The notes below the pieces were generated by a model, which saw only the letters and a list, made by a program, of their open reading frames with translations, was not told where the DNA came from and did not search any database. 64,000 nt of DNA from Methanosarcina barkeri MS (GTDB taxonomy: Archaea; Halobacteriota; Methanosarcinia; Methanosarcinales; Methanosarcinaceae). The DNA lies in NCBI RefSeq assembly GCF_000970025.1, contig NZ_CP009528.1, positions 3,335,168 through 3,399,167 of the forward strand. The letters are read 5' to 3'. The position numbers and the translations under genes are program-made. Positions 43,685-54,257 of this stretch are shown piece after piece; the first letter of the stretch is position 1, and every line of letters begins with the position of its first letter.

Positions 43685-44839
43685 ATGAGTACTGGAATAA
43701 AAAATCTTGTCCGTACACTGGACAGTGTGGACTTCTTAAAAATGGATCGACGCACTTTCATGAAAGCGTTAGGTGCAATGGGTGCAGCTGCATTTCTGAA
43801 TACCTACCAAGCTGACATGGTAAAGGCCCTTGAAGAATTCCCAGAGACAAAGCTTCTTTGGATCCACGGCTCCGAATGTACCGGCTGTTCTGAATCAGTG
43901 TTAAACGCAGGCAATCCTGACCTTGTACAAGCACTACAAAAGCTCAATATCAATCTTGCTTTCCATGAGACTCTTTGTGCACAGCAGGGAATCTGGAATG
44001 ATGGCAAGCTTGTGAACAACGCCGAGCTTAACTCCGAAATTCTCCAAGAAGAAATATATAAAGAAGGTAAATATATCCTGGTAGTTGAAGGCTCAATTCC
44101 AAACGGTCCAGATGGTTCGGGACGCTACCTGGTTATTGGGAACAAACCTTTCAAACAAACTCTTGGAGAAGCTGCAAAGAACGCAGTTGCTGTCGTTGCA
44201 GTAGGTTCCTGTGCTGCATACGGAGGAATTACCTCTGCGGACAGCGATGTTGCCAAGGATACGGATTACAGGGGAGTAGCTTTTGCAAAAGATGACTCTT
44301 CAAAGGGCATGCTTAAGGAACTTGGCATCGATAAGCCGGTAATCAACATTCCTGGTTGCCCTGCTCACCCTGACTGGGTTCTTCTTACTGTGGGCGCGGT
44401 AATTCTTGGAAAGATCAAGATCCCTGATGATCTCGATACTCTTCTGGACGAGTACGGCAGGCCAAAGGTCTTCTTCCCCCCAGACCATGTTGTCCATGAT
44501 AACTGCCCACGCCGCGGATACTATGACCGTGGAGAATTCGATGAAGAGATCGGCGGGCCAGGATGCCTGTGGAAATTAGGCTGTAAAGCTCCCTATGCTC
44601 ACGCAGACTGTGCAATTCGTAAATGGAATGGTTCAGTAAGCATGTGTACTCAGGCAGGCGGCCCCTGTATTGCCTGTGTCGAGCCGGGCTTCCCAGACAC
44701 TTCAAGACCTCTGTTTGTTGAACGTGAAGATATCGGAGTTGCCGGGACAAACATTGACACAATAGCCAAAGTTGCAGTTGGAGCAGCTGCAGTTGCAGCA
44801 GGCGTACATGCTGTTAGGAGAATGGGAAAAGGAGAGTGA
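43685..44839 (+). CDS. vhtG: Methanophenazine-reducing [NiFe] hydrogenase, small subunit
   Basis: 384 residues from the ATG at 43685 (a GTG at 43676 adds three). A Tat signal follows: MDRRTFMKALGAMGAAAF, for export of the folded dimer to the outer face of the membrane. The proximal cluster motif ECTGCSE is intact (Cys65, Cys68), with further ligands in GSCAAYGG and NIPGCPAHP; the medial and distal cluster cysteines are in [18 protein letters not shown] and CTQAGGPCIACVEPG. A C-terminal hydrophobic helix anchors it. Together with VhtA and VhtC it takes electrons from H2 to methanophenazine. Confidence 0.95.
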   Translation: MSTGIKNLVRTLDSVDFLKMDRRTFMKALGAMGAAAFLNTYQADMVKALEEFPETKLLWIHGSECTGCSESVLNAGNPDLVQALQKLNINLAFHETLCAQQGIWNDGKLVNNAELNSEILQEEIYKEGKYILVVEGSIPNGPDGSGRYLVIGNKPFKQTLGEAAKNAVAVVAVGSCAAYGGITSADSDVAKDTDYRGVAFAKDDSSKGMLKELGIDKPVINIPGCPAHPDWVLLTVGAVILGKIKIPDDLDTLLDEYGRPKVFFPPDHVVHDNCPRRGYYDRGEFDEEIGGPGCLWKLGCKAPYAHADCAIRKWNGSVSMCTQAGGPCIACVEPGFPDTSRPLFVEREDIGVAGTNIDTIAKVAVGAAAVAAGVHAVRRMGKGE

Positions 44840-44846
44840 GTGAAAA

Positions 44847-46622
44847 ATGGTAAATGTTACAGTTGATCCCTTAACCAGAATTGAAGGTCACCAGCGAATA
44901 TCCACTGAAGTAGGTGCTGACGGTGTTATTACCGATGCCCAGTCATCTTCCCTTATATTCAGGGGTTTTGAACGAATTTTGCAACATCAGGACCCAAGAG
45001 ATGCAGCTTTTCTTACCCAGAGAATTTGCGGTGTCTGTCCTCTGTCTCATGGATTGACAGCCACAAATGCTCTTGATGATCTTTATGGCGTAGCTGAGAG
45101 TGTTCCAAAAGACGCTCTTATGATGAGGAATATTTTCCAGGGCCTGAACATGGTTGCAAGCCATGCAACTCATATATACGTCCTCTTTGGTCCTGACCTT
45201 GCAAACCCAGCGTACAAGAATGTCCTCACAACACTGGGAGACACCGGAAACGCAGTCTGGAAAGAGATGGTTGGAAGGTTTGCCCCAATCAGCTACAAGA
45301 TGGATGGCGTGGCTGTACCTGCGGGAAGTTCCTATCTTGCAGCAATTCCTGAAAAGAAACGCCTTGCGGAGATGATCGCACTTATTGCCGGTAGAATGCC
45401 AGGTCCTTCAGCCCTTTATCCAGGTGGATATACCTACCCGGCTACTGTCGCAGATGTAACCAAACTTGCCTCTTACTATCTGCAGATCATGGACTTCGTA
45501 TCCAAACATACTCTAAGAGTTGATTTTGATACCTGGATCAAAAACACCTATAAGGCAAGCTCTCCTCAAAAAGCAGTAAGCTTTGTTACTGAACACCTCC
45601 AGGGTCTTGTTGACAAATCAACTGCTTCCAATGACTTCTCCAAAGACGCAGGTTGGGGAGATGTGGAGTTCTATGCAGCTTTTGGTTCAGAACTTGTAGG
45701 AGAACAAATTCTTGGTCTTCCAGCAAGCCTTAAACATGATACAATCGGTGGGTACAAGGACCCCTCAAAGATCTGCTTCGTTGCATATGGTGGATACTAC
45801 AAGTACAAAGACGGATACGATCCGAGAAGCCCGGCAGGAGACCGTATTTTCACCTCAGGTGTAGTATCAGGAAATCTCGAATATCAGAAATTTGATCCGG
45901 ACAAGATTACGGAGAGCACTGCTCACTCCTTCTACCAGAACAGTTCCAACGACCTCGCACCAACAAAAGGTGAAACCGTTCCGTTTACGGATCCAAACAA
46001 AATCGTCTACACCGGAGGTTCGGACAGCCAGTACAGCTGGGATAAGGCTCCGAGATATGACGGAATTGCAGGTGAAGTCGGGCCTCTTGCACGCATGCTA
46101 AATATAAAAGAGCCACTCGTAACCGGTTTGGCTCAGGCCCTTAATGAGAAAGGCTACTCTGCAGCTAATGTTTACACCAGAATGCTGGCTCGTATGCAGG
46201 AAACTGCAATTCTCGCGTATGAACTTCTCAATTGGGTAACAGTCGATTACAACCCCAACGGCAAGATTTCCGTGCCTATAGACCTTAATGCAGCTAAAAA
46301 TAATTCGGGAATGGGCATATGGGAAGCTCCTCGTGGAGCTCTTGGTCACTGGATCTCTGCTGGCAGCGATGGAAAGGTTACCAACTATCAGTGTATAGTT
46401 CCGGGTAGCTGGTTGATGTCCCCAAGAGACAGCAAAGGCATTCCTGGTCCTCTCGAACAGTCTCTCATTGGTTCAAAAATCAACCCAGTTGGAGATGTCG
46501 ATTATACCAATCCAGTTGGCATTTTCCATATGGGTAGATCCTATGATCCTTGCATTTCATGTGCAGTCCACACCATTGACCTGACTGGGAAAAACGCTCC
46601 AAAGACTCTAAGAATACTCTAA
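44847..46622 (+). CDS. vhtA: Methanophenazine-reducing [NiFe] hydrogenase, large subunit
   Basis: 591 residues. The NiFe ligands are in RICGVC (Cys61, Cys64) and DPCISC (Cys569, Cys572). The tail after His575 is 16 residues and would be cut off by the protease VhtD after nickel insertion. [14 protein letters not shown] and [10 protein letters not shown] are the usual active-site neighbours. Seven bp behind vhtG, with a GGAG ribosome site inside the end of vhtG. It is exported with VhtG through its Tat signal. Confidence 0.96.
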
Positions 46623-46649
46623 GTATAGTACAGAGGGAGATGACCCATA

Positions 46650-47423
46650 ATGAAATCAAAAGACAACCGGTCAATGGTTGTTGAGCGCTATACCGCAACT
46701 GACAGGATAGCTCATACTGTCCACGCTATTGCAATGTTAGTGCTCATCATCACCGGGTTAAAGATCTATACTGGATGGGACTTTATGAGTTTCCATACCG
46801 CCCGCGGTCTTCACATGATAATGGTTCCGTTCCTGCTTGCAGTGAACTGGATCCTTATCCCTTACAACATCTTCTCCGAAGGCCATGGGTTTATGGGAAA
46901 GATTTCACACTTTAAGGACCATTATATTTTCGGTCCTAAAGATGCAGCTCGTATGGGCGGTATAATTGGCAACTTCTTCAGGAAAGGCAGATATCCGGCA
47001 TTCAGCATCTATGATGAGACTACTGGCCACTACAGGACCAAACTTCATCCCTTAATGAAAATCCTGATCGTGCTTGAAGGTACAGCTCTGTTCTTAATTG
47101 CAGTCTCAGGCGTTGTGCTTTACAAGCTTGACTGGTCGCTTTTTGGCCTTCCTATAGCTTCATGGATACTGACTATAACAGGCTTTATTTCACCTGTGTT
47201 CAATCTGTCTCCCCTGGAGTTCCTCAGGATACTTCACCTGCTGATGACCTACTGGTTTGTTTTTGAACTGGTAGTCCATGTGGGTATTCTGGAGCTTGAT
47301 CCTCATGTCTTGAAGTACTACAAAGCTATCTTCCTGACCGGAAAAGAAGATCTCGCAGATACTCATTACTCTGAGGTTATCACAGCTAAAACAAAGTATT
47401 GCCCTACAAAGGAAAGGCCCTGA
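46650..47423 (+). CDS. vhtC: Hydrogenase cytochrome b subunit
   Basis: 257 residues with about four to five membrane helices. Histidines placed for two b hemes lie in [32 protein letters not shown] and ELVVHVGI. It receives electrons from VhtG and reduces methanophenazine in the membrane. The ATG at 46650 has GGGAGATGA upstream. The C-terminal end [15 protein letters not shown] is almost identical in the vhx copy. Confidence 0.94.
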
Positions 47424-47453
47424 AAATATCTTACAGAGAATAAACTTAAGGTA

Positions 47454-47480
47454 GTACAGGTATGTTTGAAAAGCCTGTAC
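47454..47480 (+). terminator. Hairpin with T-rich tail between vhtC and vhtD
   Basis: GTACAGG (47454-47460) pairs perfectly with CCTGTAC (47474-47480) around a 13-nt loop, and is followed by CTTTTT and CTTTTTT tracts. The same position behind vhxC has GTATAGG with CCTGTAC, which still pairs through one G-U. It could weaken transcription into vhtD or stabilise the GAC message. Confidence 0.6.
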
Positions 47481-47510
47481 ACCTTTTTAACTGCTTTTTT
47501 GAGTGAAAAT

Positions 47511-47996
47511 ATGTCTATACTAAATGCTTCTATACGCATTCTTGGTTGCGGAAGCCCATTAATGGGAAACGATGGTGTTGGCCTCAAAGTCATTGAGGCC
47601 CTTCAAGAATCCGAACTTAAAAACCTCAAAGATGTCAATATCGTGGATGCAGGGGTATGTGGGCTTGACCTTCTAAATCTTCTTGATGGCGCCAGGAAAG
47701 TCATAATAGTTGATGCAATTCTGGCTAACAGCCTTCCAGGTTCAGTACACCGTATAGAAGGGAAGGACTTACTGGATGGTGTCGAATTTCATCCCCTGGT
47801 TTCAGTACATGATCTGACAATTACAGATGTATTGAAAATAGGAGAACAGGTTCAAGAACTTCCTGAAATTGTGGTCATCGGAATTGAAATAGGGTCGATT
47901 GTCACGGAAGCTACGCAGGAAATCAGTCCAGATGTTCTTAAAGGTGTGGATAAAGCCATAAAGCTCATCAGAGAAGAGGTCTTTTCCTCACTTTAA
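47511..47996 (+). CDS. vhtD: Hydrogenase maturation protease
   Basis: 161 residues from the ATG at 47511 (GAGTG 7 nt upstream). RILGCGSPLMGNDGVGLKVI is the N-terminal signature of HyaD/HybD-type endopeptidases; the nickel-sensing acidic residues are in NDGVG and IVDAG, and a His in PLVSVHDLTI. It cuts the C-terminus of VhtA after nickel insertion. It could also act on VhxA, whose own protease gene is a remnant. The last codons are inside a 25-bp repeat array. Confidence 0.93.
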   Translation: MSILNASIRILGCGSPLMGNDGVGLKVIEALQESELKNLKDVNIVDAGVCGLDLLNLLDGARKVIIVDAILANSLPGSVHRIEGKDLLDGVEFHPLVSVHDLTITDVLKIGEQVQELPEIVVIGIEIGSIVTEATQEISPDVLKGVDKAIKLIREEVFSSL

Positions 47997-50274: not shown

Positions 50275-51642
50275 ATGGGGGGAAGTAGAACGGATAATGA
50301 CGACTTACTTGAAAAGTTTAAAAATCTTGATTTCATGAAAATGGATCGGCGGACCTTTATAAAGGCTGTCGGGGCATTAGGGGCTTCACTGTTTTTACAA
50401 ACGTATAAAAACGATATAGCAAAAGCTCTTGAGTTTTCGGAAACTAAGGTTGTATGGCTTCACGGAGTAATGGATAGTGGCTGTACCATATCAATGCTGG
50501 ACGGAGGATCTCCCGATATCGTAGAATTCCTTCAGGAATACAATCTCAAGCTTCTCTATCATGAAGTTTTAATGATGCAGCAGGGAATTTTCGTAGATGG
50601 AAAGCTCGCAAATACCAGTGATCTTAATTCTGAGATTGTGCTGGATGATATATTGGAAAAGGAAAAAGGTTACGTTCTAGTTTCTGAAGGGGCAATTTCG
50701 AACGGACCTGAAGGTTCCGGGAAATATCTCATGCTTGGAGGAAGAACCTATAAGGAGATTTACGCGAAAGCTGCTAAAAACGCTTTAGCAATTGTTGCAA
50801 TTGGGAATTGTGCGACTAATGGTGGGGTGAACTCTGCTAAGAGTGATATAGTTGAACTTATGGACCCCCGTGGAGTTGCTTTTACTATGGAAGATGCTTC
50901 AAAGGGGATTTTAGATCTTCTTGGCATTGAAAAGCCTGTAATTAATCTTACTGGTTGCCCTACTCATCCAGATTGGGTTTTTTTGACAATAGGCGCAGTT
51001 GTTTTGGGAAAGATCAAGATACCTGATGATTTGCCTTATGTGCTGGATCACTGGAAACGTCCAAAGGTTTTCTTCCCGCCTGACCATGTTATTCACGACA
51101 ACTGTTCTCGTCGCGGATACTATGACCGTGGAGAGTTTGAGCTGACAGTAGGTGGACCCAAGTGTCTCTGGAAACTGGGATGCAAAGGGCCTTATACCCA
51201 CGCAGACTGCGCTACTCGCCACTGGAACGGCCATCTTAATTTCTGCCCTCAGGCAGGCTCTCCCTGTATTGGTTGTGTTCAGCCAGGCTTTCCGGATAGT
51301 ACCAGGCCTTTTTTCGTGGAAATTGAGAAGACAGGAATTGTAGGTACGAATATCAATACTGTAGCGGGCGTGGCAATAGGAGGCGCACTACTTGCTGCAG
51401 GGGCTCATGCTGTCAGGAGAACTGCCATGAAAAGACCTGAGGACGAGGAAGGCTTTGCCGAAGAAACCACTCATGAAGAAACCACTCATGAAGAAACCAC
51501 TCATGAAGAAACCACTCATGAAGAAACCACTCATGAAGAAACCACTCATGAAGAAACCACTCATGAAGAAACCACTCATGAAGAAACCACTCATGAAGAA
51601 ACCGGAGAGAAAACCATAGAGGAAGCCGGAGGTGAAAAATAA
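50275..51642 (+). CDS. vhxG: Second hydrogenase small subunit, missing a proximal-cluster ligand
   Basis: 455 residues, closely related to VhtG. The Tat signal [18 protein letters not shown] is kept. Where VhtG has ECTGCSE, this protein has MDSGCTI: the first cysteine of the proximal [4Fe-4S] site is Asp67 and the glutamate two residues after the second cysteine is Ile. The other cluster cysteines ([43 protein letters not shown]) are present. Behind the membrane anchor there is an extra tail of about 65 residues with nine EETTH repeats. A partly disabled or altered electron pathway is inferred. The stop codon overlaps the vhxA ATG (TAATG). Confidence 0.92.
51460..51594 (+). repeat. Nine in-frame 15-bp repeats in vhxG (EETTH)
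   Basis: Unit GAAGAAACCACTCAT, nine perfect copies, encoding the acidic and histidine-bearing tail of the small subunit. VhtG ends shortly before this point. Confidence 0.97.
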
Positions 51643-53447
51643 TGGTACAGGTTACTGTTGATCCAGTTTCGAGAATAGAAGGGCACTACAGGATCAATAC
51701 TGAAGTCAATGGGGAAGGCGTGATTACTGATGCCCAGAGTAATGGATTACAGTTAAGGGGTTTTGAACGTCTCCTACAGCACCAGGACCCCAGGGATGCG
51801 GCACTTCTGTCCCAGAGGATATGTGGGGTTTGTCCGGTTAGCCATGGCATAGCTGCAGCAAATGCTCTCGATGAACTTTTTGGAGTGGCAGGTGAGGTTC
51901 CCAAAGACGGGCTTTTAATGCGAAACATCCATCAGGCTCTGAATTTCATAGCCAGCCATGCAGCACATATCTATGTGCTCTGGGGCCCTGATCTTGCAAA
52001 CCCGGCTTACCGTGACATCCTGGCAAAATACGGGGATGTTGGAAATGCAGTATGGAAAGAGCTCCAGGGACGTTTTGCGCCTTTGATTTATCAGATTGAC
52101 GGTGCCAGTTATCCGGCAGGCTCGTCCTATCTGGGCGCTATAGTGGAATTTCGCCGCTTGCACGAAGCCATTTCTTTGATAGCCAGCAAGATGCCTCATC
52201 CGGTTCTTCAGCATGTTGGGGGTGTAGTTTATTCTCCGACGGTTGCTGATATCGGGCAAATTTTAAGCTATGTCACGAAAACGATGGAGTTTGTTAAAAC
52301 ATTTACTCTTGGGGTCTCTCCCGATACCTGGATTGAAAATACTTACAGGGCTTCTTCTCCTCAAAAGGCTGCTAATTTCGTTCTGAATCACCTGCAAGAA
52401 CTTCTGAATAAATCCCTTGACAGCAAGGACTTCTCACACTCGGCTGGCTGGGGAGACGTCCCACTCTTTGCGGCTTTCGGCTCGGAGCTTATAGGGGAAA
52501 AACTTCTCGGCCTGCCTATCAGTATGAAAATGGACCTTGCAGGGACTTACAAAGATCCCGATAAGATCGGTTTTCTTTCTTACGGAGTTTTCTTTAAGCC
52601 CGAGAAAGGAAATGGATATGACCCCACAAGTCCTGCGGACAGCAGAGTTATTCCTTCCGGCTATATGAATGGATATTTCAAGCTTGAGAAATTCGATTAC
52701 AAAAAGATCTCAGAAAGTATTAGCCACTCCTTTTACATTGACGATGTAAACGATCGTTCTCCCTGGAATGGGATTACGGTTCCTGAAGGAAATCCCGAAA
52801 ATATCGATTATACAAAAGGATCGAAGAGCCGTTACTCGTGGGCAAAAGCCCCTCATTACAATGGAATTCCGTGTGAAGTCGGTCCTCTTGCCCGTATGAT
52901 GGTTATGGGAGAACCTCTTGTTACGGGATTAGTAAAAACTTTTCAGGATAATGGCTACTATCCTGTCAACAACTACACCCGTATGATTGCAAGGATGCAG
53001 GAAATTCTTGTAGTGGTTCCAGAAATGATAGAGTGGCTCACACAGGACCTTCAAGCAGGCGGAAAGGTTGCTGTGCATACTGATCTTTCCATGGCAAAGA
53101 GTTCCACAGGAATGGGCTTATGGGAAGCTCCGCGAGGGGCACTGGGGCACTGGATTGCTACAGGTTCGGATTCTATGGTAACCCTTTACCAGGCTGTGGT
53201 TCCGAGTACCTGGAACCTTGCTCCAAGGAATTCGCAAGGGACCCCAAGCCCTGTTGAGCAAGCTCTGATAGGCACCAAAATTTCGGCTGCTGAAAATGCA
53301 CTTGGAGTGGATTATTCAAATCCTCTTGGAATTCTGCATACAGCCCGATCTTACGATCCCTGCCTGGCATGTGCAGTTCATACAATTGATAAAACTACAA
53401 TTGATAAAACCGGAAAGCACCCGGATTATACAATCAAGGTACTTTGA
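51642..53447 (+). CDS. vhxA: Second hydrogenase large subunit
   Basis: 601 residues. All four nickel cysteines are present in RICGVC (61, 64) and DPCLAC (574, 577), with [14 protein letters not shown] and [10 protein letters not shown] intact, so the active site itself looks complete. The tail behind His580 is 21 residues, lengthened by a small duplication ([12 protein letters not shown]). It would still need a protease, and only a stub of its own D gene remains. Start overlaps vhxG by one base. Confidence 0.94.
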
Positions 53448-53462
53448 AGGAGGTTAGAAGTT

Positions 53463-54257
53463 ATGGTACGATCTGCTCAAAGATCCGCTTCTACAAGAAT
53501 GGTTGTTGAACGTTATACCTGGCTTGAGCGGGTTACTCATCTGGTTCATCTTATTACCATGTTTGTCCTGCTTATCACGGGATTCAAAATCTACTATGGT
53601 TGGGAGTTCCTGGATTTTCAAACAGCCCGATCCTGGCATGTGATTGCTGTACCTTTTTTCCTGGTTGCAAACTGGATTCTGGTCCCATACAACCTTTTTT
53701 CCTGTAAAGAAGAAAGATGCAGTGTCAGAGACAGAATAGTGCATTTTAAGGACTCTTACATTTTCGGAAAAGATGATGCAGAACGGCTCATTGATATAAT
53801 AAAGAATTTTTTTGGAAAAGGCAGGTATCCGGCTTTTACTATCTATGATGAAAGTAAAGGACACTATGTAACCAAGCTTCATCCTGTACTTAAAATTCTG
53901 ATTGTTATTGAGAGCATAGCAATTGTCATTGTAGCAATTACAGGAGTGGTGCTTTACAACCTTGAATGGTCTCCTTTCGGAATTCCTATTGCGTCATGGA
54001 TACTTTCCGTAGCCTGGTATTTTGCGTCCTTTTTCAATATCAATGCCTTAGGGTTGCTTCGCTTATTACATCTGCTTGCAGCCTACTGGTTTGTCTTTGA
54101 GCTTGTGATCCATGTAGGAATTATTGAATTTGATCCATACGTATGGAAATATCATAAAGCAATCTTCTGGTCCGGAAAAGAAGACCTTTCAGATACTCAT
54201 TATTCCGAGGTTATCACAGCTAAAACAAAGTATTTACCTACAAAGGAAAGGCCTTGA
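53463..54257 (+). CDS. vhxC: Second hydrogenase cytochrome b subunit
   Basis: 264 residues, similar to VhtC throughout. Heme histidines in [23 protein letters not shown] and ELVIHVGI are kept, but Vht[10 protein letters not shown] reads FQTARSWHV here. An inserted CKEERC pair sits in a loop. Ribosome site GGAGG lies 7 nt before the ATG at 53463. The C-terminus [15 protein letters not shown] matches VhtC except for one residue. Confidence 0.92.

Follow-up and report, generated by a model that had tools for sequence, protein, structure and literature searches.

The proximal cluster of a [NiFe] hydrogenase influences both the onward transfer of electrons and the direction in which the enzyme runs, and several described enzymes provide a frame for the proximal site of VhxG, a small subunit encoded in Methanosarcina barkeri MS. 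VhtG/VhoG, from the methanophenazine-reducing [NiFe] hydrogenase, resembles VhxG in gene order, twin-arginine (Tat) motif, medial and distal cluster ligands, cytochrome b partner and sequence (about 60% identity), but has four proximal cysteines (ECTGC) and a vhtD protease gene, whereas VhxG reads DSGC and its operon lacks a vhxD. Asp or Asn at a proximal ligand is also seen in solved enzymes. HofK of C. necator (5aa5; group 1h, actinobacterial-type; GCDGDS) has a proximal CxxC pair reduced, as in VhxG, to one Cys and an Asp, and a 2016 study by Schafer is said to have found its cluster ligated by three Cys and one Asp; unlike VhxG, it is a bacterial, O2-insensitive enzyme with the Asp at the second Cys (CDGD). 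The FrhG chain of the F420-reducing hydrogenase (3zfs/4ci0; GCTGDAM) comes, like VhxG, from a [NiFe] hydrogenase of methanogens and likewise has one proximal Cys exchanged for Asp; in M. marburgensis this residue, Asp60, was modelled as a [4Fe-4S] ligand (PMC3591093). Here too the Asp takes the place of the second Cys in CxxC (CTGD), and this group 3 enzyme has neither Tat export nor cytochrome b. Finally, HucS of M. smegmatis (7utd; group 2a; ACSGNT) shares a non-Cys residue at a proximal ligand, although this is Asn, again at the second Cys (CSGN), and all three Huc clusters are [3Fe-4S], with a raised onset potential (PMC10017518) that favours H2 uptake.

Published work on Vhx itself has mostly pointed toward an inactive enzyme. 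The M. barkeri vhx genes were reported to be unable to make an active hydrogenase (PMC6030560), hydrogenase activity was not detectable in a strain carrying only fre plus vhx (PMC13224831), and the M. barkeri vhxG promoter-RBS region gave no reporter signal and had no discernible RBS (PMC11409679). Conserved Vhx active-site residues have been stated for M. acetivorans (PMC13224831), and one transcriptome study found vhx to be regulated under acetate stress (PMC6913021).

The window, i.e., the whole stretch of 64,000 nucleotides that was analysed, contains hyp genes together with vhtGACD (43685-47996) and vhxGAC (50275-54257), with the vht and vhx genes all on the forward strand and separated by a 2.2-kb gap. 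The paralogous set consists of vhtG (43685-44839, with ECTGC at 43874-43888), vhtA (44847-46622), the cytochrome b gene vhtC (46650-47423) and the maturation protease gene vhtD (47466-47996), which is the sole protease gene in the cluster and lies upstream of vhxGAC. As annotated, vhxG (50275-51642) encodes a [NiFe] hydrogenase small subunit of 455 aa; it is followed by the large-subunit gene vhxA (51642-53447) and by vhxC (53463-54257), a cytochrome b gene with conserved histidines. Both PF01058 and PF14720 score above the Pfam cut-off in VhxG. Against TIGR00391 (NCBIfam hydA), VhxG scores 169.5, below the cut-off of 179.5, while VhtG passes with 200.6. An AF2 model of VhxG (pLDDT 81, without cofactors) adopts the group 1 small subunit fold, with a Foldseek E of 7e-22 to 4kl8 and with Huc among its top matches.

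The locus also carries several features outside the proximal site of VhxG. A perfect 15-bp tandem repeat at 51460-51603 (9.6 copies) encodes an (EETTH)n stretch in the C-terminal tail of VhxG, and relatives have a far shorter repeat or none. In the VhxA tail, a 15-bp duplication at 53381-53410 (TIDKT) lies past the expected cleavage site and was seen in none of the other genomes compared. The vhtA product of the active paralogue reads RMPGP at 45393-45407, with Gly at a conserved His beside the proximal cluster; this Gly is found in 23 of 37 VhtA and is explained by one change on the tree, and the His is kept in all VhxA. A link between Asp-type VhxG and Gly-type VhtA was considered and set aside, as there is just one independent pair.

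At the proximal site, VhxG reads VMDSGCTI where VhtG reads SECTGCSE. The codons at 50470-50484 (ATG GAT AGT GGC TGT) encode M66-D67-S68-G69-C70, which places Asp67 (50473-50475) where the proximal CxxC pair has its first Cys, aligned with WIHGS-ECTGCSES in VhtG; FrhG and HofK carry their Asp at the second Cys, so VhxG is not of their type. The remaining ligands, namely proximal Cys70, Cys179 (50809-50811) and Cys228 (50956-50958), Cys277, Cys297, Cys303, His274, Cys312, Cys324, Cys331 and Cys334 (His274 and Cys277 to Cys334 together spanning 51094-51276), are invariant across 32 VhxG, except that Cys179 is deleted in one incomplete metagenome-assembled genome (MAG). The medial (three Cys) and distal (one His, three Cys) ligand sets are thus complete, and the proximal set of three Cys plus Asp67 departs from the four-Cys pattern of group 1 small subunits. 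Codons and ligand alignment together confirm the original prediction, made from this DNA alone, that one proximal Cys of VhtG is lost in VhxG (ECTGCSE to MDSGCTI) with the other cysteines kept. The same prediction also listed loss of the adjacent Glu, which is indeed Met in VhxG, but this Glu is not universal in Cys-type archaeal group 1 small subunits, where Ser, Ala, Gln, Asp or Thr is found instead. No replacement Cys for the lost ligand was found among the Asp-specific sites of VhxG. The change from Glu-Cys to Met-Asp could, speculatively, have arisen through compensating indels that moved GA by 3 nt (GAATGT to ATGGAT), a simpler route than five substitutions. Separately, vhtG in two incomplete MAGs with no Vhx found (L037 and L039, genomes G016 and G019) reads ESTGC, with Ser at the first proximal Cys.

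We next consider how widely the Asp type is spread. VhxG-type genes are present in 27 of 31 genomes of the genus and also in two neighbouring genera. Within the crown Vhx clade (n=23), 18 sequences carry MDSGC[TS]I, four ECTGC and one GCTGC, while basal Vhx are ECTGC throughout; one of the five Cys-type crown sequences is presumably that of M. acetivorans. A universal Asp, which had been suggested as a sign of selection, therefore holds for 18 of 23 crown VhxG and fails for five crown and all basal sequences. Codons of the Asp-type motif vary synonymously (Asp GAT/GAC; Ser AGT/AGC/TCG/TCA; Cys TGT/TGC; and the Gly codon as well), and the presence of the motif in 18 independently assembled species with such variation rules out sequencing error, a strain-only substitution or chance, the first two of which (the second in company with other disabling mutations) had been named as outcomes that would overturn the prediction. 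Besides VhxG 66-68, the few sites that split Asp-type from Cys-type crown Vhx are Phe85 and Ala140 in VhxG, Gly35 and Phe170 in VhxA, and Ala207 in VhxC. A tree built without the motif requires two state changes in crown Vhx, yet the AU test fails to reject one origin of Asp (p-AU 0.082 for VhxG and 0.093 for VhxA), so conservation is counted here as one gain that was kept, and many origins inside Vhx are unnecessary. As a separate observation, EchE is present in 16 of 17 Asp-type species and 2 of 8 Cys-type species (Fisher p 0.001 with kinship ignored; counts omit G021 and G027, the genomes of lowest completeness).

By pairwise Nei-Gojobori comparison of the 18 Asp-type species (mean dS about 1.0), Asp-type VhxG has a dN/dS of 0.100, or 0.081 within the barkeri-like group, and VhtG from these species has 0.131. 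For the large subunits the values are 0.106 (VhxA) and 0.150 (VhtA). In Asp-type VhxG, 228 columns are invariant in amino acid, and in 199 of these the codon varies. Asp-type VhxG is under strong purifying selection, no weaker than that on VhtG.

The same exchange is found elsewhere. A small subunit of the Asp type but distant from VhxG, used as query against the phylum, led to two further clades in which Asp occupies the position of the first proximal Cys (S-D-[ST]-[GA]-C). One comprises six genomes of a family (f5) of the same order as Methanosarcina, and the other 5 genomes of a second family (f9), whose sister enzymes read SC[ST]AC. We take the latter family to be Archaeoglobales and two of its members to be Ferroglobus placidus and Geoglobus ahangari. 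Joint monophyly of the two Asp clades is rejected (p-AU 0.0029) and Vhx itself branches within its Cys-type Vht relatives, so the sequences place the number of Cys/Asp exchanges in these archaea at three at least. In the operons read from both families the large-subunit Cys ligands are intact (DPCxxC or DLCxxC), and the first clade also has cytochrome b and protease genes. The Archaeoglobales enzymes (L174-L177, L185) resemble VhxG in that Asp replaces the very same Cys, the first proximal one (S-D-[ST]-A-C), but differ in gene order (small subunit, cytochrome b, large subunit, with NiFe ligands kept), in having reached Asp independently and in sequence (about 40% identity). Growth on H2 with Fe(III) is described for G. 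ahangari, whose genome annotation lists GAH_00910-00912 as Ni-Fe hydrogenase I (PMC4600277); judged by chromosome position, this is probably the Asp-type copy L185, alongside which a Cys-type enzyme (L178) is present.

Within Vhx, the partner subunits are well preserved. Both CxxC NiFe ligand pairs (RICGVC, 51816-51833; DPCLAC, 53355-53372), the active-site Arg and the C-terminal His are invariant in 31 VhxA, Arg498, Pro497, Asp572 and Glu13 are invariant or nearly so, and the same is true of 8 of the 10 histidines in VhxC. An exception near the C-terminal NiFe ligands is the APRN motif of all VhxA (53220-53231 here) against SPRD in all VhtA, so that Asn530 stands in every VhxA where every VhtA has Asp. 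The large-subunit active site, originally described as intact, is so in its Cys ligands, Arg498, Pro497, Asp572, Glu13 and C-terminal His, but not at this position. The vhx operon lacks a maturation protease gene (vhxD) of its own, with vhtD lying upstream instead. In the 29 loci examined, vhtD immediately precedes vhxG; it is upstream in nearly all loci, and in basal species the two are within about 0.2-0.4 kb. In one genome (L033, G007), vhtC is broken, an intact vhtD-vhxGAC block lies downstream, and a separate vhtGAC is found elsewhere in the genome. Its position upstream of vhxG in nearly all loci and its retention beside vhxGAC in G007 suggest that VhtD probably matures VhxA.

The start of vhxG probably also differs from its annotation. 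Basal vhxG mostly begin with ATG 18 codons before the DRR of the twin-arginine export motif (DRRTF, 50344-50358 here), behind GGAGG or a similar run. Among 21 crown species, the codon at this position is ACG in 16, ATG in 4 and GTG in 1, with a conserved GGGGGA ahead of the ACG. Codons -13 to -4 before DRR are translated, with a pN/pS of 0.02-0.05 in frame against 1.2-2.5 in shifted frames, and in six of the ACG species the reading frame contains no ATG, GTG or TTG from a stop up to codon -3. On these grounds the ACG at 50290-50292, which occupies the ancestral ATG position, is likely the real start codon, and not the annotated ATG at 50275. The latter is present in few species and overlaps a G-rich, Shine-Dalgarno-like run (50277-50283) conserved in crown vhxG, so a fusion at this ATG deletes the probable ribosome-binding site; the published reporter fusion appears to have used it. 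ACG starts occur in both Asp- and Cys-type vhxG, which makes the start change and the Asp change separable. Codons -13 to -10 before DRR (TTA CTT GAA AAG) show almost no variation, even synonymous, across the 21 crown species, with synonymous divergence high elsewhere, and a constraint at the RNA level near the vhxG start is possible.

Taken together, these results establish VhxG as a genuine variant of a known enzyme, maintained by selection and not a product of decay. The reading we favour, with somewhat more confidence than doubt, is that Vhx is a selected, functional paralogue of Vht in which Cys67-to-Asp is a stable evolutionary state that alters the proximal cluster and biases the enzyme toward H2 oxidation. 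By sequence, the exported small subunit retains the medial and distal clusters and has as partners cytochrome b and an intact NiFe large subunit, the latter probably matured by the VhtD encoded upstream. The Asp-type proximal cluster would be held by Cys70, Cys179 and Cys228, with Asp67 either supplying the fourth ligand to a [4Fe-4S] cluster or standing beside an open corner or a [3Fe-4S] cluster. Asp-ligated clusters generally have a raised potential. A raised potential is also described for [3Fe-4S] clusters (PMC10017518), and either form would thus be expected to raise the proximal potential and to favour oxidation of H2, with methanophenazine as acceptor, over its production. Translation from ACG would limit how much of the enzyme is made.

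Altered potential, a 3Cys/1Asp cluster and decay were the options originally put forward for this site. Decay of VhxG is contradicted by dN/dS of 0.08-0.10 and by the intact state of all other ligands in VhxG, VhxA and VhxC; an altered cluster appears favoured by fixation in 18 species, by the two other archaeal clades and by solved enzymes whose neighbouring ligand is Asp or Asn. That the substitution is neutral or slightly harmful and tolerated in a scarcely expressed Vhx, with the operon in slow decay, would fit the reports of weak expression (PMC11409679), the non-ATG start and the VhxG deletion and split VhxA of one incomplete MAG (G027), but we consider it very improbable, as it is already contradicted by the dN/dS over 18 species at such divergence and by the invariant columns with varied codons, and the G027 lesions belong to a Cys-type gene. 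Tolerance of several residues, as the Ser in two VhtG suggests, would also suit an ordinary [4Fe-4S] cluster whose fourth ligand is water or a different residue, with Asp67 in the second sphere and without notable redox effect; the separate fixation of Asp, and not of a mix of residues, in other archaeal clades suggests a specific carboxylate role and makes this improbable.

A more serious alternative, though one we hold to be unlikely, is that Vhx, although conserved, has ceased to be a hydrogenase, lacking a working proximal cluster and serving instead as another point of electron entry, as a scaffold or partner for Vht subunits, or as a regulatory H2-binding protein. The published genetics and reporter results, the missing vhxD and Asn530 count against an active Vhx; the absence of activity in the strain with only vhx and fre, the missing protease gene, the Asp530Asn change in all VhxA and the joint loss of Glu and Cys speak for this alternative, and strong purifying selection is compatible with any function. 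Set against this, Vhx keeps the NiFe ligands, Arg498, Glu13, the C-terminal His cleavage signal, the other two clusters and the conserved VhxC histidines, and the Asp-type enzymes of Archaeoglobales likewise retain their NiFe ligands within operons that include cytochrome b.

Extending the favoured reading of a functional, H2-oxidizing paralogue, we tentatively suggest that Asp-type Vhx may be an active but scarce hydrogenase whose raised-potential DxxC cluster is tuned for taking up trace H2 or for sensing H2 in those Methanosarcina that contain Ech, that it may belong to a convergent archaeal class with Asp at the first ligand, and that it may have been dismissed as inactive partly because the ACG start and ribosome-binding site were misplaced. 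The Asp and Cys types of Vhx provide natural pairs of one enzyme for probing how cluster potential relates to catalytic bias, and these findings reopen the role of Vhx in H2-cycling methanogens, where it had been set aside as inactive.
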